Shown here: positions 2,589-18,106 of the stretch, one piece after another
Numbering within the stretch: the first letter of the stretch is position 1
Layout of the letters: the number at the start of each line of letters is the position of its first letter
From: Blastochloris sulfoviridis
GTDB taxonomy: Bacteria > Pseudomonadota > Alphaproteobacteria > Rhizobiales > Xanthobacteraceae
Length of the DNA stretch: 64,000 nt
Reading direction: 5' to 3'
NCBI RefSeq assembly: GCF_008630065.1
Contig: NZ_VWPL01000017.1
Location: 1-64,000 of the forward strand
Translations under genes and position numbers: made by a program
The notes under the pieces: generated by a model
Told to the model about the DNA's origin: nothing
Databases searched by the model: none
What the model saw: the letters and a program-made list of their open reading frames with translations, nothing else

Positions 2589-3974
2589 TTACTCCGCCGC
2601 CTCGACGTGCGGCCGGGTCTTGCCGTTGCGGGCCTTCTTGAGCAGGTCGGCGATCAGGAACGCCAGCTCGATCGCCTGCTCGGCATTGAGGCGCGGATCG
2701 CAATAGGTGTGGTAGCGGTCCGACAGGTCGTTCTCGCTGATGGCACGGGCGCCGCCGGTGCATTCGGTGACGTTGCGGCCGGTCATCTCCAGATGCACGC
2801 CGCCGGGGTGCGTGCCCTCGGCCGCGTGCACCGCGAAGAACCCCCTCACCTCCTGCAGGATCAGGTCGAACGGCCGGGTCTTGAAGCCGGTTCCGGCCTT
2901 CACGGTGTTGCCGTGCATGGGATCGCACGTCCACAGCACGGCGCGGCCTTCCTGCTTCACCCGGCGCACCAGGGCCGGATACTGCTCGCCGATCTTGTTC
3001 GCGCCATAGCGGGCGATGAGCTGGATGCGGCCGGGCTCGTTCCCCGGATTGAGGATGTCGAGCAGCTCCATCAGCCCATCGGCCGAAAGCGTCGGGCCGC
3101 ACTTGAGGCCGATCGGGTTCTTGATGCCGCGGCAGTACTCGACGTGCGCGCCCTCCGGCTGGCGGGTGCGGTCGCCGATCCACAGCATGTGGCCGGAGGT
3201 GGCGTACCAGTCGCCGGTGGTGGAATCGACCCGGGTCAGCGCCTCCTCATAGCCCAGCAGCAGCGCCTCGTGGCTGGTGTAGACGTCGGTGGTGCGCATC
3301 TCCGGATGCGTCTCGGGATCGATGCCGCAGGCGCGCATGAAGTCGAGCGCCTCGGTGATGCGGTCGGCGAGCTGCTGGTAGCGGGCGGACTGCGGGCTGT
3401 CCTTGACGAAGCCCAGCATCCAGCGGTGCGCGTTCTCCAGATTGGCGTAGCCGCCGGTGGCGAAGGCGCGCAGCAGGTTCAGCGTCGCCGCCGACTGGCG
3501 GTAGGCCGAGATCTGGCGGCGCGGATCGGGCACGCGCGCCTCGGGCGTGAAGGCGATGTCGTTGACGATGTCGCCGCGGTAGGACGGCAGCTCGACGCCG
3601 TTCAGCGTCTCGGTCGGCGCCGAGCGCGGCTTGGCAAACTGGCCGGCGATGCGGCCGACCTTCACCACCGGCACCGCGCCGGCAAAGGTCATCACCACCG
3701 CCATCTGCAGGAAAACGCGAAAGAAATCGCGGATGTTGTCGGCCGTGTGCTCGGCGAAGCTCTCGGCGCAATCGCCACCCTGCAGCAAAAACGCCTCGCC
3801 CGCCGCGACCTTCGCCAGCGACTTCTTCAGCTTGCGGGCCTCGCCGGCGAACACCAGAGGCGGAAAGGAGGCAAGCTGCGTCTCGGTGGCCGCCAGGGCG
3901 GCCTGGTCCGGATAGTCCGGCACCTGCACGATCGGCTTGTTCCGCCAGCTCGACGGGCTCCAACGCTCAGCCAT
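2589..3974 (-). CDS. Class II 3-deoxy-7-phosphoheptulonate (DAHP) synthase
   Basis: This enzyme condenses phosphoenolpyruvate with erythrose 4-phosphate, the first committed step of the shikimate pathway. The 461-residue protein is of the plant/actinobacterial/rhizobial class II type. Recognisable blocks are [10 protein letters not shown] at 5-14, the metal-site block [27 protein letters not shown], and DPMHGNT with its metal-binding His near the middle of the barrel. ECTGGA follows toward the C-terminus. The ATG at 3974 gives the family N-terminus exactly. The gene lies 7 bp from repeat family B on its 3' side and has a long leader upstream. Confidence 0.95.
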
Positions 3975-4432
3975 GTATCCAATCCTGACACCGCCACGGC
4001 GGAAGCGCCACGGCGGCTGCGTGCTTATACACCAGGGGTGTGCCCTGCAAAATCATACGGGATGCTTAGAGCCTTCTCCGCAGGCATCGAATCCGGCCAC
4101 GCCCGATAAAGCGCGCCCCCCGAACGGCTTGGCGCCGTTTCCGCAGACGCCGGGTGGACCCGGATCGCCGAAGGGCGCCGCCTCAACGCCTTGGAGCGCC
4201 TTCATGCAGATCCACAGGACCGTCAATGACGGCAGCCGCCGGCGCTGACTCAAATCCTCAAGAGGCGCGCCGATCCTCCTGACGGGACTCGGATATGGCC
4301 GGGGCGGCGGCCGGGCGGCGGCGCGAAGCATTGCCGGCTTACCTTCCGCCGCGACACCAAAGGACTCCTTTTTGCGCGCATGTCACCCTCGCTTGGTTGC
4401 GATCATTTGTATTACCTAAGAGTTGCAACCGA
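3975..4432. other. Intergenic region between DAHP synthase and the exosortase cassette
   Basis: No convincing gene is present. The minus-strand frame at 4053-4331 is proline/arginine-rich and lacks a ribosome site. The region should hold the DAHP synthase promoter. A weak candidate reads TTTTGC-N17-TATAAG on the minus strand near 4020-4060. A 25-bp motif at 4404-4428 is nearly repeated upstream of the L,D-transpeptidase (25562-25585). Confidence 0.6.
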
Positions 4433-4461
4433 TTGACACCAGAAATTGCGCTGGCTAGAAA
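4433..4461 (+). promoter_or_regulatory. Sigma70-type promoter of the exosortase cassette
   Basis: A perfect -35 box TTGACA at 4433-4438 is followed after 17 bp by TAGAAA at 4456-4461. This is the best -35/-10 pair noticed in the window. It would start a short leader carrying the ribosome site TAGGAG (4478-4483), nine bases before the ATG at 4493. Confidence 0.7.
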
Positions 4462-4492
4462 TTCAACCGTCATTAGCTAGGAGCCGTCAATC

Positions 4493-4726
4493 ATGGCGAG
4501 AAGTTCTTTGGTTCTTTGCTTGCTCCTGAACTTGGCGTTGGTTTCGCCGGCAGGTGCGTGGGGCTTTCATCCGGGCAATCCAGATCGCCCTCATGATCGC
4601 TTTCATGACCGTTCTCACGGCCATCCTCGCGGCGCGCCTGGTCCCGACGTCGACATCGGCCTGATCGGCCTGGCGATGGTTGGGGTTGCGACGGTCGTCG
4701 CGCTCCGCCGCAAGGGCAAGAACTGA
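4493..4726 (+). CDS. Small secreted His-containing protein with exosortase-type sorting tail
   Basis: The 77-residue product has three parts. There is a signal peptide (1-22, ending AGA before Trp23). A hydrophilic His/Pro/Arg/Asp stretch (23-48) carries five histidines. The tail reads PDVDIGLIGLAMVG and runs through a single transmembrane segment to the basic end RRKGKN. Motif plus helix plus basic cluster is the architecture of PEP-CTERM-like substrates, although the classic Pro-Glu-Pro is replaced by PDVD. The exosortase gene follows 251 bp downstream, so this is probably its dedicated substrate. A strong ribosome site (TAGGAG) and promoter precede it. Function is unknown; the histidines suggest metal binding, but that is inference. 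Confidence 0.75.
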   Translation: MARSSLVLCLLLNLALVSPAGAWGFHPGNPDRPHDRFHDRSHGHPRGAPGPDVDIGLIGLAMVGVATVVALRRKGKN

Positions 4727-4765
4727 TCGCGAACGTTCGGGCCGGACGGAACCGTCATGCCCGAA

Positions 4766-4836
4766 GCTGCAACCGAGCTTGCGCAGGCTGCGTGATTTCG
4801 CCTGCGCCTGCAACCGAGCCTGCGCGGGTCGCATGA
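4766..4836 (+). repeat. Imperfect 30-bp direct repeat
   Basis: Two units, 4766-4795 and 4807-4836, share the core CTGCAACCGAGC(T/C)TGCGC and the ending GCxTGA. They lie between the small substrate gene and the exosortase gene and fall in no credible reading frame. Confidence 0.6.
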
Positions 4837-4886
4837 ATCCGCCTCTCGCGGGCATGCACGGCCAGAAATGTCTTTTGGAACAAAGA

Positions 4887-4919
4887 TGTGGATGACCGAG
4901 ACAAGGCCCGGCCATGACG
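4887..4919 (+). repeat. Interspersed repeat family F, single copy
   Basis: A GTGGATGACCGAGACAAG unit ends in GCCCGGCCATGACGG. It is related to the inverted pair at 32238-32270 and 32341-32373, whose core is GGCCGGGACAAGCCCGGCC. Confidence 0.6.
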
Positions 4920-4977
4920 GCTGCGGTTCAAATTCAGAGGCCGCTGCCATAAGCAGCCGAACTGATCCAGTCTTGCC

Positions 4978-5832
4978 GTGACCGAGTGGAACGGACGTCC
5001 CAGCAACAGCACCCTGCGCAACAGCCTGTTTCGCGACAGGCATGTTCTGCTGATATTCCTGTGCTGCGTCGTTGTCGCGGTTGCGTGGCCGCGCGGGCAA
5101 AGAGTCTCCGATTCAATCGATGTTTCGAACTTTCTCGTCGACGCGGCGGCGGTCGGCGCCGGTGAACTGGTCGCCCTCACCGCCCTGTTTGTCGTCATCC
5201 AGCGGTTTCGCGACGACGTCCTGCTGTCGGCTCGCGACAATTGGCTCCTGGCCGCCGCAAGCTTTCCGATCGCCCTGGCCCCGCTGCACGCCGCCAGTGC
5301 GGCGATGGCGGCGGTCGGGCTCGCCTTCGCGTTCCGGAAGGACGCGCGGCTGGCGGCGGTCGGCCAGCTTCTTCTGGCGCTGGCCTCCTACGAGACCTTT
5401 GGTCCGCTGATATTCCGGCTGGTCCTGCCGCTCGTTCTCGCGTTCGAAGCCAGCCTTGCCGGCCACCTGCTGTCGCTGTTCGGCGACTTCACCCGCGACG
5501 GCGACATGATCGTGGCACCGAACGGTCACGCCATCTTCATCGAGGTGCCGTGCTCTTCGTTCCACAACCTGACATTCTCGATGCTGCTGTGCATGTCGCT
5601 GCTGAAGATCGAGAAGCTGACCATTTCCCGTTCGGATGTTCCGTTGTTCCTGGCCATGGCAGGCATCACCATCGTCTTCAACCTGACCCGGATCGGGCTG
5701 ATGGCCCAGTCCGTGGCGTATTACGAGTTCTGGCACGACGGGCTCGGCGTCAAAATCTATTCGGTCGGCCTGCTGGCTTGTCTTGTCGCAACCTACGGCC
5801 TGTTCCGTCCTTCGACGGCTGCCCAAACATGA
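4978..5832 (+). CDS. Exosortase family integral-membrane transpeptidase
   Basis: Exosortases process C-terminal sorting tails of exported proteins at the inner membrane. This 284-residue protein is largely hydrophobic, with about seven to eight membrane spans. The C-terminal third carries the catalytic signature: Cys192 in EVPCSSFHN, Arg238 in FNLTRIGLM, and His253 in FWHDGLGVK, in the family order and spacing. The family's usual CSG is CSS here. The start is a GTG at 4978 with a weak ribosome site, so the N-terminus is uncertain. The stop overlaps the next gene (ATGA). No polysaccharide-synthesis genes adjoin it, unlike many exosortase loci, so this looks like a stand-alone pair with the 77-residue protein upstream. 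Confidence 0.85.
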   Translation: MTEWNGRPSNSTLRNSLFRDRHVLLIFLCCVVVAVAWPRGQRVSDSIDVSNFLVDAAAVGAGELVALTALFVVIQRFRDDVLLSARDNWLLAAASFPIALAPLHAASAAMAAVGLAFAFRKDARLAAVGQLLLALASYETFGPLIFRLVLPLVLAFEASLAGHLLSLFGDFTRDGDMIVAPNGHAIFIEVPCSSFHNLTFSMLLCMSLLKIEKLTISRSDVPLFLAMAGITIVFNLTRIGLMAQSVAYYEFWHDGLGVKIYSVGLLACLVATYGLFRPSTAAQT

Positions 5833-6356
5833 CGGCGCGGACGGTTGCCGCCGCCGCCATCGCCCTTGCCGCCCTGACAGGATTCTTGAGCAAGCTCGCC
5901 GACACCGTCTGGCGTCCCAAAGTGACGGCATCGCTGGATCTGCCGCCGGGGACGACGCTCGGCCCCGAGCCGGCCGCGCTCATCGTGACATCGATTGTCT
6001 CGTCGCCCGCCGTCGGGGTCGAGATGCAGGCCCCCGGCTGCGACAAATCGATTTTCGGATTTCCATTTTCAATGCTGGTCGTCACCGGTCCGGGCATTGT
6101 CGAATATCAATACCGGAGCCAGGGATATGTCGTCGTCGATGCGCTCTATGGCGAGATCATTCCGGAGAATTCGTACCACGTCCGGCTCATCTACTATGCG
6201 AGAGCCGCCACGGAGAGGATATACCTCTCAACGGCGCCCAGCATGATGCCGTTCTTCATCCGGTTTGCCGTGCCCCAATCGTGCAGGCTCAGCCCATCCA
6301 CGCTGGAGACCGCCTCGCGCGAGCTGGTGGATGCAATTCTCCGCGAGCGAGACTGA
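5829..6356 (+). CDS. Membrane-anchored protein of unknown function, partner of the exosortase
   Basis: The 175-residue product starts at an ATG that overlaps the exosortase stop by four bases, so translation is probably coupled. Residues 4-20 form an N-terminal membrane anchor or signal (AAAAIALAALTGFL). The rest is a soluble domain with no family I recognise. EpsI-type proteins often follow exosortases, and size and position fit that slot, but I do not see EpsI signature residues. Two cysteines lie in the soluble part (QAPGCDKS and PQSCRLS) and could pair in the periplasm. The convergent gor gene ends 29 bp downstream. Confidence 0.7.
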   Translation: MTARTVAAAAIALAALTGFLSKLADTVWRPKVTASLDLPPGTTLGPEPAALIVTSIVSSPAVGVEMQAPGCDKSIFGFPFSMLVVTGPGIVEYQYRSQGYVVVDALYGEIIPENSYHVRLIYYARAATERIYLSTAPSMMPFFIRFAVPQSCRLSPSTLETASRELVDAILRERD

Positions 6357-6385
6357 CGCGCATTCCAGGTGCGCAGGAAATAGCC

Positions 6386-7750
6386 TCACCCCGGCTGCCA
6401 CTTGGTGCGCAGCGTCACCAGCTCCTCGGCGGCTGAGGGGTGCAGCGCCATGGTGGCATCGAAGTCGGCCTTCTTCGCCCCCATCTTCACCGCGATCGCC
6501 AGGCACTGCACCATTTCGGCCGCCGCCTCGCCGATGATGTGGACGCCGAGCACCCGGTCGCTCTCGCCATCCACCACCAGCTTCATGAACACCTTGGTGT
6601 CGCGGCCGGAGAGCGTCGCCTTCATCGGCCGGAAGCTCGTCTTGTAGATGTCGATCGGCGCGCCGCCCGCCCGCGCCTCGGCCTCGGTGGCGCCGACGGT
6701 GCCGATCTCCGGCTCGGTGAATACGGCCGTGGGGATGGCGCCGTAGTCGACCGCCTCCAGCCGGCCGCCGAACAGCCCATCGGCCACCGCGTGGCCCTCG
6801 CGGATGGCGACGGGGGTGAGCGCGACGCGGCCGGTGACGTCGCCGACCGCGAAGATATGCGCCACGCTGGTGCGCGAGACCGCATCCACTGCCACCGCGC
6901 CGCGGGGGTCGAGCGCCACGCCGGTGTTCTCCAGGCCGAGCCCGCTGGTGTTGGGCATGCGCCCGGTCGCCGCCATCAGCAGGTCGGCCTCGATCTCGTC
7001 GCCGCCGGCAAGCTCGATACGCAAACCGGCATCCGCGCGCGCCGCCGCCCGGATGGTCTCGGACAGGCGGAAGCGGATGCCCTGCGTCTCCATCTCCTTC
7101 TGGATCGCCAGCCGGATGTCCTCGTCGAAGCCGCGCAGCACTCGCTCGCCGCGGTGGACCACCGTGACCTCGGCGCCGAGCCCCTTGAAGATGCCGGCGA
7201 ATTCCAGCGCGATATAGCCGCCGCCCTGCACCACCACCCGCCGCGGCAGGCGATCGAGATCGAACGCCTCGTTGGAAGTGGCGGCAAGCTCGCAGCCGGG
7301 GAACACCGGCCGGATGGGATGGGCGCCGGTGGCGATCAGGATGTTGCGGGCGCGGATGCGCCGGCCGGAGCCCTTGAGCAGGACCGTGTGGTCGTCCTCG
7401 AACACCGCGCGTTCGGCAATGACCGTGACACCGGCCCGCTCCAGATTGGCGCGGTAGATCTTCTCCAGCCGGGCGATCTCGCGATCCTTGGCGGCGATCA
7501 GCGCCCGCCAGTCGTGCGCCGGCGTGCCGAGGCTCCAGCCGAAGGCCGCGGCGTCCTCGAACGCGTGGTCGAAGCGCGCGGCATAGACCAGCAGCTTCTT
7601 CGGCACGCAGCCGCGAATGACGCAGGTGCCGCCGACCCGGAACTCCTCGGCCACCATCACCCTGGCGCCGTAGCCGGCGGCGATGCGCGCCGCCCTGACC
7701 CCGCCGGAGCCCGCCCCGATGACGAAGAGATCGGCGTCGAATTCGCTCAT
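6386..7750 (-). CDS. gor: Glutathione-disulfide reductase
   Basis: This cytoplasmic flavoenzyme reduces glutathione disulfide with NADPH. The 454-residue protein has the N-terminal FAD loop GAGSGGVRAAR at 12-22 and the redox-active cysteines Cys43 and Cys48 in GGTCVIRGCVPKK. A second Rossmann motif (GGGYIALEFAG) binds NADPH. The C-terminal active-site block HPSAAEE has its catalytic His at about 437. The ATG at 7750 has the ribosome site GAGGCG. The gene belongs to the rpiA-DUF2059-DUF2059-gor block, but 407 bp of repeats separate it from the upstream DUF2059 gene. Confidence 0.95.
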   Translation of the reverse strand: MSEFDADLFVIGAGSGGVRAARIAAGYGARVMVAEEFRVGGTCVIRGCVPKKLLVYAARFDHAFEDAAAFGWSLGTPAHDWRALIAAKDREIARLEKIYRANLERAGVTVIAERAVFEDDHTVLLKGSGRRIRARNILIATGAHPIRPVFPGCELAATSNEAFDLDRLPRRVVVQGGGYIALEFAGIFKGLGAEVTVVHRGERVLRGFDEDIRLAIQKEMETQGIRFRLSETIRAAARADAGLRIELAGGDEIEADLLMAATGRMPNTSGLGLENTGVALDPRGAVAVDAVSRTSVAHIFAVGDVTGRVALTPVAIREGHAVADGLFGGRLEAVDYGAIPTAVFTEPEIGTVGATEAEARAGGAPIDIYKTSFRPMKATLSGRDTKVFMKLVVDGESDRVLGVHIIGEAAAEMVQCLAIAVKMGAKKADFDATMALHPSAAEELVTLRTKWQPG

Positions 7751-13432: not shown

Positions 13433-13729
13433 TCACGCCTTCTTGGCGTAGAGACGGCACCAGCCATTGGCGGCGATCTTGCCCTCCACCACCTGGCACG
13501 AGGCCGGGGCGACGAACATGCGGCAATTGTCGCAGCGCTGCGCGCCCTTGGGCGACTCCTGATAGCCCGAGGCCTTGTGGCTGGCCTTCTTGGCGACCTG
13601 GGCCTCGGCGTCGGTGGCGGCAAGGCCGATCGCAGCGCCCGCGCCCAGCACGTAGGCGCTGCAGACGAGCATGTCGCGGCGCGACAGCCGGCGGGACTTG
13701 GTGGTGGCATCCATGATCTTGGCATCCAT
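13433..13729 (-). CDS. pioC: High-potential iron-sulfur protein PioC
   Basis: PioC is a small periplasmic [4Fe-4S] carrier thought to pass electrons from the outer-membrane iron oxidase to the photosynthetic reaction centre. The 98-residue precursor has a Tat signal with SRRDMLV near residue 16 and a hydrophobic stretch ending in DAEAQ. The predicted mature part is 54 residues, beginning VAKKASHK, and matches my recollection of Rhodopseudomonas PioC in length and in motifs such as GYQESP and NGWCRLYA. Four cluster cysteines are present: CDNC, then ASC, then GWC. It is last in the pioABC order, 64 bp after pioB. Confidence 0.94.
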   Translation of the reverse strand: MDAKIMDATTKSRRLSRRDMLVCSAYVLGAGAAIGLAATDAEAQVAKKASHKASGYQESPKGAQRCDNCRMFVAPASCQVVEGKIAANGWCRLYAKKA

Positions 13730-13793: not shown

Positions 13794-16280
13794 TCACCAT
13801 TTCACCGCCAGCGACGCGGCGATCAGATGTGAGGTGTAATTGGGATTGTAGGCGGCCATGGAGATGTTGCGCACCATGTTGCCATCGACGAGATACATGT
13901 ACGGCGTCGTCCAGTCGTTCTGCCAGTTTGTGACCTGGTTCTGCTCCCAGCTGTAGCGAAGCTTGACGTAGACATCGCCAACCAGCCCGACCTTGGTGAC
14001 GAACTCCGGATCGACGTGGTATTTCAGAATGGCATCCAGGCGCTGATAGTCGTTCTTCACCGTCGGGAACGGCTGGCAGGCGCTGTTGACGGCGGCAAGG
14101 CATTGGCTGCTGTCGGTGTAGGGCTGCGCAGTCCAGTTCTCCTTGCCGTGGGCGTAGGCGTAGTTGAGCTTGAGTTCGAGCTTATCGGGAATGAGCTCGA
14201 CGTTCGCCGACGCGATATAAGTGTCGACGTTCTCGTCCATGTTGCTGAAGAAATATCCAACACCCGGCGACATGACCGTCGGATCCTGGTAGCTCATCGT
14301 ACCCTGGCTGCCATACAGATCACGATCGAAATTCTCGTGGACGTAAGCGAGCATCAGCGTCGTGCCGGGTGCGAACGAATAGGCGACCTCAATGCCGACA
14401 TTCCAGCTATTATCCTTGGTCAGGCCAAGTTCGCCTGTTTGGCCAGTGCCATAATTCTGATAGATATTGAAAGGATTGGTCTCGTAGTCATCGAAGCGCA
14501 GGCCGGCGGTCGGGGTGATCGTCAGCCGCTCGATGCCCGACCATTCCAGCAACACATTGGCCTTCTGGCGGTTGCGGTCGGCCATGGTGAACTTCCGCAT
14601 CAGCAGGTTGTTCACAGTAGTATCGACGCCGTCGTATTGGTAATAGGCGACCGATGCCAAGTCGTAATTGTTATAAGTCCGTCCGGCATACAGGTAGCTG
14701 GAGCGCAGACGCGTGTCATCGCCAAGTCGCGCGTCGAGAAACACCTTGCCGCTGAATTCATTGGTGACGTCCACGGAGCGTCGTCCGCGATCGTACTGCT
14801 CCCAGCCGACCGCGCCGCCGATGGTCAGGTTCCTGCTGGGGCGCCAAGTCAATTCCTCCGAAGCGTTTTGCTTGGTGTAGGAATAGGCCAAGTTGCGGCG
14901 GCGGAGCGCGACGTTGGAGGCATCCTCCTGCACGTATTGTGGCCAGTATATTTCCGGCGTATTATTGTTGTTATCATAATAACGATAGCGCAGCGTCGAC
15001 TTGACATCCTTGCCGAGCCGGGTGGAGACGACGTTGTTCACCAGCAGCGTGTCCACCTTGGCGTCGGCGCTGTCCGTCGGCATGGTGCCGATCCCGAGGG
15101 CGGGATTGGGATTGATCGTGCGGTCGATGAACGCATCGTCCTGCCGCATCATGGTGTAGGACACGGTGCCCATATATCGGCTCTTGCCCGGCAGATCGAC
15201 GCCGGCCGTGGTGGCGAAATTGTAGGCCTGGTTGTCGGGCGACAGGCTGACGCGGCCGCAGCGCGGATAGGTGTTGTTGGCTGTCGTCAACGCGCAGTTG
15301 GGGGACGAGCCGGGATTGGTGGCTGAGAACGGATTTTCGAACGTGAAGGAGTCGAAGTCGTTCTGATAGGACGACACGCTGGCCGAGGTGCGGACATTGA
15401 ACTTGCCGCCCCACGGCGTTTCGTCGGCATACTGGCCCGACAGCTTGGCGTTCTGGGTGGTGTCGGCCACCGGCGCCGGCAGTTGCACCATCTGCTGAGC
15501 GCCCATGCCGCCGATGATCGCACCGGCGACCTGGGTGCCTTCGCGCCGCTCGTGCGAATAGTCGGCGCGCACATCCCAGTTCTGGTTCGGCGTCCAACGC
15601 TGCATGGCGGCGAACTTGTCGCGCTCGATGCCAATGTCGATGGTTTTGAGGTTGCCCTGGAGCGCGTTATAGATCGCCGTATTGGAGGCAAGGCCGCTAT
15701 TGGCGATATTGCCGACCCATACCGGCGTGGTGAGGAAGTTCGTGCCGACACCCTCCCAGATGCTCTGGGCCGAGGCGCTGTAGAGGTGTGGGATCTGGTC
15801 CCAAGAATAGGTGCCGTAGAACTCACCGGCCTTCGACCAGTCGAAGACGAAGCGTTGGTTGTTGTTGCCGACATTATCGCCGCGGAAGTCGGCGAAGTAA
15901 TCGCCGTCCTTGGTCTGTGCACTGATGTCAATCTTCTCCAGAAACAGGCCGGGGCTGATGTTGCCGTATTCCTCGAACTTGGCGCGATTGTCGCGGTCGG
16001 TATTGAAGATCGGCGACGGCTGCCCGCCCATCAGTGGATCGGTGCTGGTGCCGGCCGCGGTTGGCGGACCGGCCGGCAGAATCCCCGGCAGCGCGTAGCT
16101 CGGCGGCCGCTCAATGAAGGCGCGGAACCCAGCCTCGATCTCGCCCGAAATGTTCACGCCGCCATGTTCCTCGGCCTCAGCCGGAACCGCCGGTTCTGCG
16201 GCCAAAGCGCCCCGCGAAAGGGCTGATCCGGCCGCGATCAGCAGCACGCTGGTCAGCGCCATTCCCCCGTTGACCTTCAT
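13794..16280 (-). CDS. pioB: Outer-membrane beta-barrel porin PioB (MtrB family)
   Basis: PioB/MtrB forms the outer-membrane sheath through which the decaheme cytochrome passes electrons. The ATG at 16280 is preceded by GGAGGGGGTG and gives 828 residues. The protein has a signal peptide (VNGGMALTSVLLIAAGSALS to ALAAEP). The rest is rich in alternating aromatic strands, with frequent Tyr, Trp, Asn and Asp. The chain ends in AVKW, a terminal aromatic typical of proteins inserted by the Bam machinery. Size matches the roughly 800-residue PioB. I did not see the N-terminal CxxC of some MtrB proteins. It lies between pioA and pioC on the same strand. Confidence 0.93.
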   Translation of the reverse strand: MKVNGGMALTSVLLIAAGSALSRGALAAEPAVPAEAEEHGGVNISGEIEAGFRAFIERPPSYALPGILPAGPPTAAGTSTDPLMGGQPSPIFNTDRDNRAKFEEYGNISPGLFLEKIDISAQTKDGDYFADFRGDNVGNNNQRFVFDWSKAGEFYGTYSWDQIPHLYSASAQSIWEGVGTNFLTTPVWVGNIANSGLASNTAIYNALQGNLKTIDIGIERDKFAAMQRWTPNQNWDVRADYSHERREGTQVAGAIIGGMGAQQMVQLPAPVADTTQNAKLSGQYADETPWGGKFNVRTSASVSSYQNDFDSFTFENPFSATNPGSSPNCALTTANNTYPRCGRVSLSPDNQAYNFATTAGVDLPGKSRYMGTVSYTMMRQDDAFIDRTINPNPALGIGTMPTDSADAKVDTLLVNNVVSTRLGKDVKSTLRYRYYDNNNNTPEIYWPQYVQEDASNVALRRRNLAYSYTKQNASEELTWRPSRNLTIGGAVGWEQYDRGRRSVDVTNEFSGKVFLDARLGDDTRLRSSYLYAGRTYNNYDLASVAYYQYDGVDTTVNNLLMRKFTMADRNRQKANVLLEWSGIERLTITPTAGLRFDDYETNPFNIYQNYGTGQTGELGLTKDNSWNVGIEVAYSFAPGTTLMLAYVHENFDRDLYGSQGTMSYQDPTVMSPGVGYFFSNMDENVDTYIASANVELIPDKLELKLNYAYAHGKENWTAQPYTDSSQCLAAVNSACQPFPTVKNDYQRLDAILKYHVDPEFVTKVGLVGDVYVKLRYSWEQNQVTNWQNDWTTPYMYLVDGNMVRNISMAAYNPNYTSHLIAASLAVKW

Positions 16281-16555
16281 CACCCCCTCCTTCCCGCCAG
16301 CGCCGCACTTGCGCACGCATGCTACGTTTTCCCCATGCCCCGGCGGCTCGCCTTCGGCGGCCACTCTTGAGTGCTGTTGGCGGCCCGCCCCCTTGGCCGC
16401 GGTCTTCCCGGCGGCATGTCGAAGGCAGCCGCAGTCACCCGGCGGCCTGCCGATGGGTGGCCGCTTCTCTCAGCGTCGTGGAGGTCGAGGCCCGGCCGTA
16501 CCGCGCCTCGGAGTTGCCGCCCGCCGCGCTGCGGGCAGCGCCGGCCGGCACCGCG

Positions 16556-18106
16556 TCAGCGGTGCCAGCGCGCGCCGGACGGGCTGTTCGAGCCGTGAAT
16601 GTTCGTGTGGCAGTTCTGGCAGGAACTGCCGACCGCGTAGCGCAGGGCGTTGGCGGTCGCTCCGAGCACACCGAGGCCAGCCTGATTGTGCCGATTGGTA
16701 TGGCAGCGCTGGCACAGCCGCTCGCGCGCCACCACCAGAAGCTTGTCGTGCATCGAGCCGTGCGGTTCGTGGCAGTTCAGGCAGTTTTCGCGAACCGGCG
16801 GATGCTCGAACAGGAACGGCCCGCGCTTCTCGGCGTGGCAGGTGTAGCAGGTGTCGTTGACCGTATCGCCCTTCAGCATCGCCTCGGTGGCCGAGCCGTG
16901 CGGATTGTGGCAGTTGGCGCAGGTGATCTTGCCCTCGCGGATCGGCATGTGCGCCGTGCGCAGCGATTGCGCGCGCCGGTCCTTGTGACACTGGAAGCAG
17001 GTGTCCATCACCGACGTCTTGGCGAGCTGGAAGCGCGGCGTCGTCTTGCGCATCACGGTGTGGCAGTCGACGCAGGCGACGTCGCGGTTCTCGTGCGTCG
17101 AGCCGCGCCAATAGGTCTGCTCGCCCTTCTCGTGGCAGCTCAGACATACACCGTTGGCGTCGGCCACCGAGAAGCGCGGGTCGGTCTTGCGGAAGGAGCG
17201 GATGTGGCCGGCCTCGCGGCCGCCGCCGGCATTGACGTGGCCGGAGCCCGGCCCGTGGCAGCTTTCGCACTCCATCTTGCCCTGGGGCGTCGCCTTCCCG
17301 GACAGGATGTTGCGGCCCATGATGGTCTTGGAGAATTCGTCGAACAGGCCGGCGTGGCACGTCTCGCACGGCTTGGAGCCGACATAGTAGCGCCCCTCCG
17401 GATCATCCGGCGCCGGCATGACCATCAGGGCGTGCCCTTCGGCCGCCGCCGCCGCCTTCGCCCGCTTCTTCGGCTTCGGCGCCGGCTGCGCGACGTCCGC
17501 CTGCGCGACCACGATCGGCTGGTCCGCCGCGCCAACCCCCTCGGCCGTCGCGTGGTCGGCTGCCAAGTGGTCGGCTGCCAAGTGGTCGGCTGCCAAGTGG
17601 TCGGCTGCCCCTTGGACCGCCGAATCGGCCCCGTCACCCTTCAGGCCATGGACCTTGAGGCCATGACCCTTCGAGCCATGACCCCTCGAGCCATGCCCCG
17701 TCGAGCGATCACCCTTCAGGCCATGACCCTCAAGGCCGGTCCCGGCTGGCCCGATACCGGCATGCGGAGAAGCTTTCCCGGCGCCTGCGCGCTCCGACAA
17801 CGCGCCGTGGGCGGCGGTCGCCGCCGCCGCGTGGCCGGCGCCGGCCACGTCGCCCGCCACAACCTGCGGCACGCTCAACCCGACGTCGCGGGCATAGTCC
17901 GCCAAGGCCCGGTATTCGGCCATGAAGTCGCCACGGATGGCCCCGCCGGCATGCGGCGTCTCCGCCTCCACGGTGACCGCACCGAGCCACGCCGCGCTTC
18001 CCAGCACGACCAGCGCCACGGCTGATTTTTTTGATATACGAAATACTGAATACGATTTTCCGAAAGCCGAGCGTCGCCACCGGCTCCAACAGCCTGACAA
18101 ATCCAT
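16556..18106 (-). CDS. pioA: Decaheme c-type cytochrome PioA (MtrA family) with long N-terminal extension
   Basis: PioA is the periplasmic, outer-membrane-spanning cytochrome that takes electrons from Fe(II) or electrodes. Exactly ten CxxCH haem motifs are visible: CETCH (Cys247), CESCH, CLSCH, CVDCH, CFQCH, CANCH, CYTCH, CLNCH, CQRCH and CQNCH. The N-terminus has a basic stretch and a hydrophobic signal (KKSAVALVVLGSAAWLGAV). Before the first haem lies an extension of about 190 residues that is Ala/Gly/His-rich. It contains HG(L/S)(K/R)G repeats (about 128-156) and three DHLAA units (169-183). A 275-bp gap, with no recognised gene, separates it from pioB. It should head the operon. Confidence 0.95.
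   Translation of the reverse strand: MDLSGCWSRWRRSAFGKSYSVFRISKKSAVALVVLGSAAWLGAVTVEAETPHAGGAIRGDFMAEYRALADYARDVGLSVPQVVAGDVAGAGHAAAATAAHGALSERAGAGKASPHAGIGPAGTGLEGHGLKGDRSTGHGSRGHGSKGHGLKVHGLKGDGADSAVQGAADHLAADHLAADHLAADHATAEGVGAADQPIVVAQADVAQPAPKPKKRAKAAAAAEGHALMVMPAPDDPEGRYYVGSKPCETCHAGLFDEFSKTIMGRNILSGKATPQGKMECESCHGPGSGHVNAGGGREAGHIRSFRKTDPRFSVADANGVCLSCHEKGEQTYWRGSTHENRDVACVDCHTVMRKTTPRFQLAKTSVMDTCFQCHKDRRAQSLRTAHMPIREGKITCANCHNPHGSATEAMLKGDTVNDTCYTCHAEKRGPFLFEHPPVRENCLNCHEPHGSMHDKLLVVARERLCQRCHTNRHNQAGLGVLGATANALRYAVGSSCQNCHTNIHGSNSPSGARWHR
17552..17611 (-). repeat. Four tandem 15-bp repeats inside pioA
   Basis: The unit GTGGTCGGCTGCCAA occurs at 17552, 17567 and 17582, with a diverged fourth copy at 17597-17611. 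It encodes DHLAA on the minus strand, so copy-number change would keep the frame and alter only linker length. Confidence 0.9.

Follow-up and report, generated by a model that had tools for sequence, protein, structure and literature searches.

A probable dedicated one-target system of an unnamed alphaproteobacterial exosortase lineage in Blastochloris sulfoviridis

Our analysis of the window, the whole 64-kb (64,000-nucleotide) stretch of Blastochloris sulfoviridis DNA presented above, suggests that a three-gene cassette within it is a dedicated one-target system of an exosortase lineage found in Alphaproteobacteria and so far unnamed, a reading that, together with the processing mechanism proposed below, we regard as probable. 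The original prediction, a stand-alone exosortase cassette with one dedicated, histidine-containing substrate, was borne out as an observation and supported in part as an interpretation. The concept of a dedicated sorting system is established; what is new to the annotation libraries used here is a Pro-x-Pro signature of the lineage and a family of two-cysteine proteins encoded with the enzyme, although earlier descriptions of either may exist. Exosortase biochemistry is poorly known, and a single genome often encodes twenty or more exosortase targets. With one 77-residue substrate, a cassette of three genes comes near the minimum for a system of this type, and where cleavage occurs, what the acceptor is and what the extra protein does can all be tested in it directly.

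A cassette present or absent as a unit

The three reading frames of the cassette (Table 1) are real genes, and they, the C-terminal tail of the first product, the exosortase residues and the ATGA overlap between the exosortase stop and the ATG of the third gene (5829-5832) are as first described. The small gene and the exosortase gene lie on the same strand, 251 bp apart. The small protein starts with a signal-like sequence (MARSSLVLCLLLNLALVSPAGA; signal peptide, residues 1-22) and ends with the tail APGPDVDIGLIGLAMVGVATVVALRRKGKN; between them lies a passenger of residues ~23-48 that carries all five histidines, and the tail itself comprises P49-G-P51, a helix and RRKGKN. In a strict scan of both strands of the 64-kb window for a signal peptide combined with a tripartite tail, this 77-residue frame was the sole match. 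Since it is 95% identical to its counterpart in the sister species, with a dN/dS ratio of 0.067 (dN 0.027, dS 0.399), it is a genuine gene under strong purifying selection, the ratio being lower than those of the exosortase (0.20) and of the third gene (0.28).

Table 1. Features of the cassette, its flanks and a second gene cluster of the window
Feature	Position	Strand	Remarks
Class-II DAHP synthase gene	2589-3974	-	flank of cassette
Conserved upstream block	4335-4492	+	holds TTGACA (4433-4438), 17-nt spacer, TAGAAA (4456-4461)
77-aa secreted protein, putative sole substrate	4493-4726	+	sister-species identity, tail profile, dN/dS
Spacer, 251 bp	4727-4977	.	37-nt imperfect direct repeat inside; differs between species
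Predicted exosortase, 284 aa, GTG start	4978-5832	+	catalytic C192, R238, H253; invariant N235
Partner protein, 175 aa	5829-6356	+	N-terminal membrane anchor; invariant C71 and C152
Disulfide oxidoreductase gene	6386-7750	-	flank of cassette
Small iron-sulfur-like secreted protein	13433-13729	-	
MtrB/PioB-type outer-membrane porin	13794-16364	-	Pfam PF11854, E 6e-122
Protein with ten CXXCH haem motifs	16556-18106	-	

All three genes occur in the sister species (G337), with identities of 95, 86 and 82% for the small protein, the exosortase and the third protein, and none occurs in a third species of the genus (G367), where ~320 bp separate the same flanks that are 2.4 kb apart in the window; the cassette is thus present or absent as a unit. 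Its immediate surroundings, as annotated, comprise NAD synthetase-like, DAHP synthase, disulfide oxidoreductase and rpiA-like genes, no polysaccharide genes adjoining it, and an Rfam search of positions 4000-6500 gave no match. Beyond the genus, enzyme and profile searches recovered 34 related loci sporadically distributed in Alphaproteobacteria, a count that depends on the E-value limits used. The enzyme was found in 19 of the 397 genomes sampled from the order and in 11 of the 385 from the class; as up to six candidates were scored per genome in these large surveys, a few of the negatives may be positives. The three genes stand in the same order in Neorhizobium alkalisoli DSM 21826, likewise with no polysaccharide genes next to them. 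Three genomes carry two exosortases of the lineage, each with its own partner (G230, loci L061 and L063; G155, L016 and L064; G933, L086 and L091).

Upstream of the small gene, positions 4335-4515 are ~93-95% identical between the window and the sister species while the intergenic DNA farther upstream is only 23-77% identical, which makes a conserved control region in this block likely. The claim of a near-consensus promoter here is weak, the sequence being only half consensus: TTGACA is followed at 17 nt by a second box and is conserved in the sister species, but that -10 box, TAGAAA, is poor and a scan with the sigma-70 consensus accepted no site. One promoter may drive all three genes, as originally proposed, but the first and second are split by a spacer that is rich in indels between the species. 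An AT-rich stretch immediately 5' of TTGACA (4401-4432) is bracketed by GGTTGC and GCAACC, and AGTTGCAACCGA, at 4421-4432, has a nearly unchanged copy in the spacer at 4765-4776; both the bracketing pair and the repeat could be operator sites.

The exosortase and its two-cysteine partner

The second gene product is a multi-helix membrane protein with the Cys, Arg and His that define the exosortase superfamily, and the catalytic residues predicted to be intact (C192, R238 and H253) are indeed present and, together with N235, invariant in an alignment of 24 homologues. Its AlphaFold model is confident (pLDDT 87.5) and helical, with short strands immediately before the catalytic cysteine; Foldseek found no significant match to this model in the PDB (TM-scores ~0.2), and a PDB sequence search found no relative among solved structures. 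Against the assignment, the enzyme scores 19.6 bits with TIGR04178, the signature model of the exosortase/archaeosortase superfamily, below the curated cut-off of 23. Aligned relatives exceed this cut-off (24.0, 24.4 and 28.6 bits for L058, L022 and L065), and 21 of the 24 aligned enzymes match the model at E <= 0.01. The best-scoring named exosortases are cyanoexosortases B and C (TIGR04156, 9.8e-8; NF033464, 1.4e-7), at scores far under their cut-offs (31.8 vs 300 bits). Direct scans with the window enzyme turned up no named relatives, and none on plasmids; only one exosortase of this kind was found in the genome to which the window belongs. Taken together, the residues, the weak but consistent model matches and the tail-bearing neighbours described below identify the protein, at the level of sequence, as an exosortase.

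The locus resembles the EpsH/PEP-CTERM system (PMC1569441) in three ways: its enzyme has multiple helices and the invariant Cys, Arg and His, its target is composed of signal peptide, motif, helix and basic cluster, and an extra gene lies directly 3' of the enzyme. However, TIGR02602 (8TM_EpsH) has no match anywhere in the window genome, the PEP-CTERM model TIGR02595 does not match the 77-residue protein up to E 10, in agreement with the early view that its tail is unlike the classic PEP, the downstream protein is not EpsI (TIGR02914) by model, and there is one target and no exopolysaccharide locus alongside. Since neither model is matched and there are no polysaccharide neighbours, the enzyme stands outside the named EpsH/PEP-CTERM system. 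The cyanoexosortases also have a protein of unknown function encoded immediately downstream, although CrtB of Nostoc punctiforme has a group of PEP-CTERM proteins as its targets and is encoded within a polysaccharide locus (PMC12188702), and the window partner does not match TIGR04533, the model of the CrtB-associated protein.

A homologue of the third gene lies directly 3' of the enzyme gene in 32 of the 34 related loci, often with the same four-base overlap, and was present at nine of the eleven loci left out when the partner profile was built. All 23 aligned partners have an N-terminal hydrophobic segment and the invariant cysteines C71 and C152; the description of a membrane-anchored third protein coupled by ATGA therefore holds, with the anchor at the N-terminus. 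The protein is thus the near-constant partner of this exosortase lineage and not a chance neighbour. No match of note was obtained with the 23 members in NCBIfam and Pfam, nor with the models of the EpsI family and of cyanoexosortase-associated proteins; a PDB sequence search returned chance-level matches only, and the structure model is uncertain (pLDDT 61). In gene position the partner is like EpsI and the CrtB-associated protein, neither of which has a known function (PMC1569441, PMC12188702), but the sequence models place it in neither family.

A Pro-x-Pro tail that follows the enzyme

Small secreted proteins with a tripartite C-terminus adjoin related enzymes as well, with tails such as RGAPFPIAALGLPLAAGLFAYVILKRSKN (Neorhizobium huautlense, L058 and L099), DGAPGPDFGLGAALGVVAGSLYLRRRRCRD (L095) and KNVPGPIAGAGLPLLLAAAGYAAWRRRKAS (L061). 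In an alignment of 15 such tails only two prolines are invariant, forming a Pro-x-Pro signature. The tail originally described as PDVD-helix-RRK is real in its tripartite design, but its signature is P49-G-P51 and not PDVD; as a recognition motif PDVD was rejected, since P49 and P51 are all that the families share and PDVD is a local continuation. PGPD recurs in L095, as DGAPGPDFGLG. A Pro-x-Pro tail protein lies within ~2.5 kb of the enzyme at 20 of 35 alphaproteobacterial loci, the window included, with the small gene either ahead of the enzyme and partner genes, behind them, or nearby on the opposite strand. One enzyme clade (L018, L066, L021 and L067; support 99/100) is distinguished by a tail subtype and a gene order of its own, enzyme-partner-small, which suggests co-evolution of enzyme and tail within it. 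The tail motif of XrtD/VPLPA-CTERM (TIGR04152) is similarly P-x-P-like; XrtD is matched weakly (0.00026) by two of the window enzyme's relatives but not by the window enzyme itself, and the VPLPA model matches none of the tails of this lineage.

The distribution of the tail was examined with a profile in 32 enzyme-positive genomes and in a sample of 121 from the order, including four with the enzyme. At E <= 1e-3 the tail was found in 26 of the 32 genomes with the enzyme and in none of the 117 without it, where the best match (E 0.0012) lacks the P-x-P part. Once the 13 genomes that had contributed to the profile were removed the counts were 13 of 19 and 0 of 117, and with their close relatives also removed the tail was still found in 9 of 15 enzyme-positive genomes (Fisher p ~2e-10). 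A simple scan of open reading frames for P-x-P tails, a secondary and weaker test, gave 11 near enzymes and six far from them (3.2-fold per base), three of the far ones being tail proteins of 215 residues; without the window and the sister species, nine lay near enzymes vs 1.7-3.4 expected (p 7e-5 to 0.008). A scan with a degenerate pattern was set aside because the alignment in question (A1) was too divergent.

In the window genome exactly one tail reaches E <= 1e-3, apparent second matches being in unrelated reading frames or devoid of P-x-P. The notion of a stand-alone exosortase with one dedicated substrate is supported by this single enzyme and single tail and by the conservation of the cassette; the outcomes that were to refute it, a pair not conserved in relatives or many other targets, did not turn up. 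Eighteen genomes have one tail, which adjoins the enzyme in 16 of them, and eight have two to seven, none of which is adjacent to the enzyme in four of the eight. In dedicated systems such as rhombosortase/GlyGly-CTERM a single target and its enzyme are encoded side by side, while numerous targets are encoded far apart (PMC3237569), and the one-target genomes here follow this pattern, that of the window with its one enzyme, one tail and adjacent genes among them. Rhombosortase itself differs in being an unrelated serine protease whose motif is GlyGly. The comparison further indicates that systems with one substrate recur within a larger unnamed family, other members of which have six or seven targets.

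Counting against a dedicated exosortase, six of the 32 enzyme-positive genomes have no significant tail. They leave room for an enzyme that mainly processes other proteins with a different tail, the 77-residue protein being a minor substrate or a chance neighbour, and a divergent signal could escape the profile, but we think this very improbable given that no second tail comes near significance in the window genome and that small gene and enzyme are gained or lost together.

Proposed processing and alternative readings

We infer that the signal peptide exports the small protein and that the C-terminal helix and the RRK cluster hold it in the inner membrane, where the exosortase would recognise the A-P-G-P signature at the outer face. 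Cys192, assisted by Arg238 and His253, would attack the backbone near Pro-x-Pro and release the tail, and the passenger of ~26 residues would be passed to an acceptor or freed. The third protein, with its membrane anchor and a periplasmic domain probably stabilised by a C71-C152 disulfide, would work with the exosortase.

The smallest relatives count against this scheme. Directly 3' of exosortase and partner, L017 encodes four tandem paralogues of 54-62 residues (6345-7128, + strand), each with barely any sequence between its signal peptide and its (T/S)P-x-P tail; in L017 and L068 the passenger predicted to be left after processing is ~4-10 residues long, which is hard to reconcile with the ordinary anchoring of a surface protein. 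Because some putative substrates are almost without passenger, the product may be a short peptide on an acceptor. A more specific version, which we put forward tentatively and hold to be possible but doubtful, is that these enzymes form an exosortase class of their own for which the two-cysteine partner is obligatory, and that its minimal members, instead of sorting proteins, make short peptides: the passenger of ~4-26 residues, flanked by a signal peptide and a Pro-x-Pro tail, would be excised and then either released or attached to a lipid or glycan.

The same tiny passengers could instead mean that the small proteins are membrane subunits or regulators whose Pro-x-Pro helix docks in the exosortase uncut, since signal peptidase and exosortase together would leave so little of them and since, in one-target genomes, their gene is nearly always beside that of the enzyme, as expected of a gene for a subunit. 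This is nevertheless unlikely: motif, helix and basic cluster make up the architecture of a sorting signal, the passenger varies freely and the two prolines do not, and the secreted proteins that carry this tail in multi-target genomes are 170-260 residues long. Some of these larger proteins are weakly similar, below curated cut-offs, to exosortase-dependent or choice-of-anchor families, that is, to folds of exported surface proteins. L019, L059 and L060 (7009-7656 in L060) encode, ~1-2.5 kb from exosortase and partner, a secreted protein of 215 residues that ends in an IPGPVPG tail and has weak similarity to choice-of-anchor C proteins.

For the passenger the original prediction had proposed metal binding, the cassette placing the peptide at the cell surface; a variant of this reading has a histidine-rich peptide released there. 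The passenger has five histidines in 26 residues, six in the sister species, and that of L086 contains DHGHRHHGP. Across the family, however, the histidines are not conserved (zero to six per protein), and since most related small proteins have 0-3 and Gly/Asn/Pro-rich passengers, metal binding is unsupported beyond the genus; with immediate neighbours that are not metal genes either, this function seems to us quite improbable.

Elsewhere in the window, on the minus strand between 13433 and 18106, three genes in a row (Table 1) make up a probable pio-type operon for extracellular iron oxidation.
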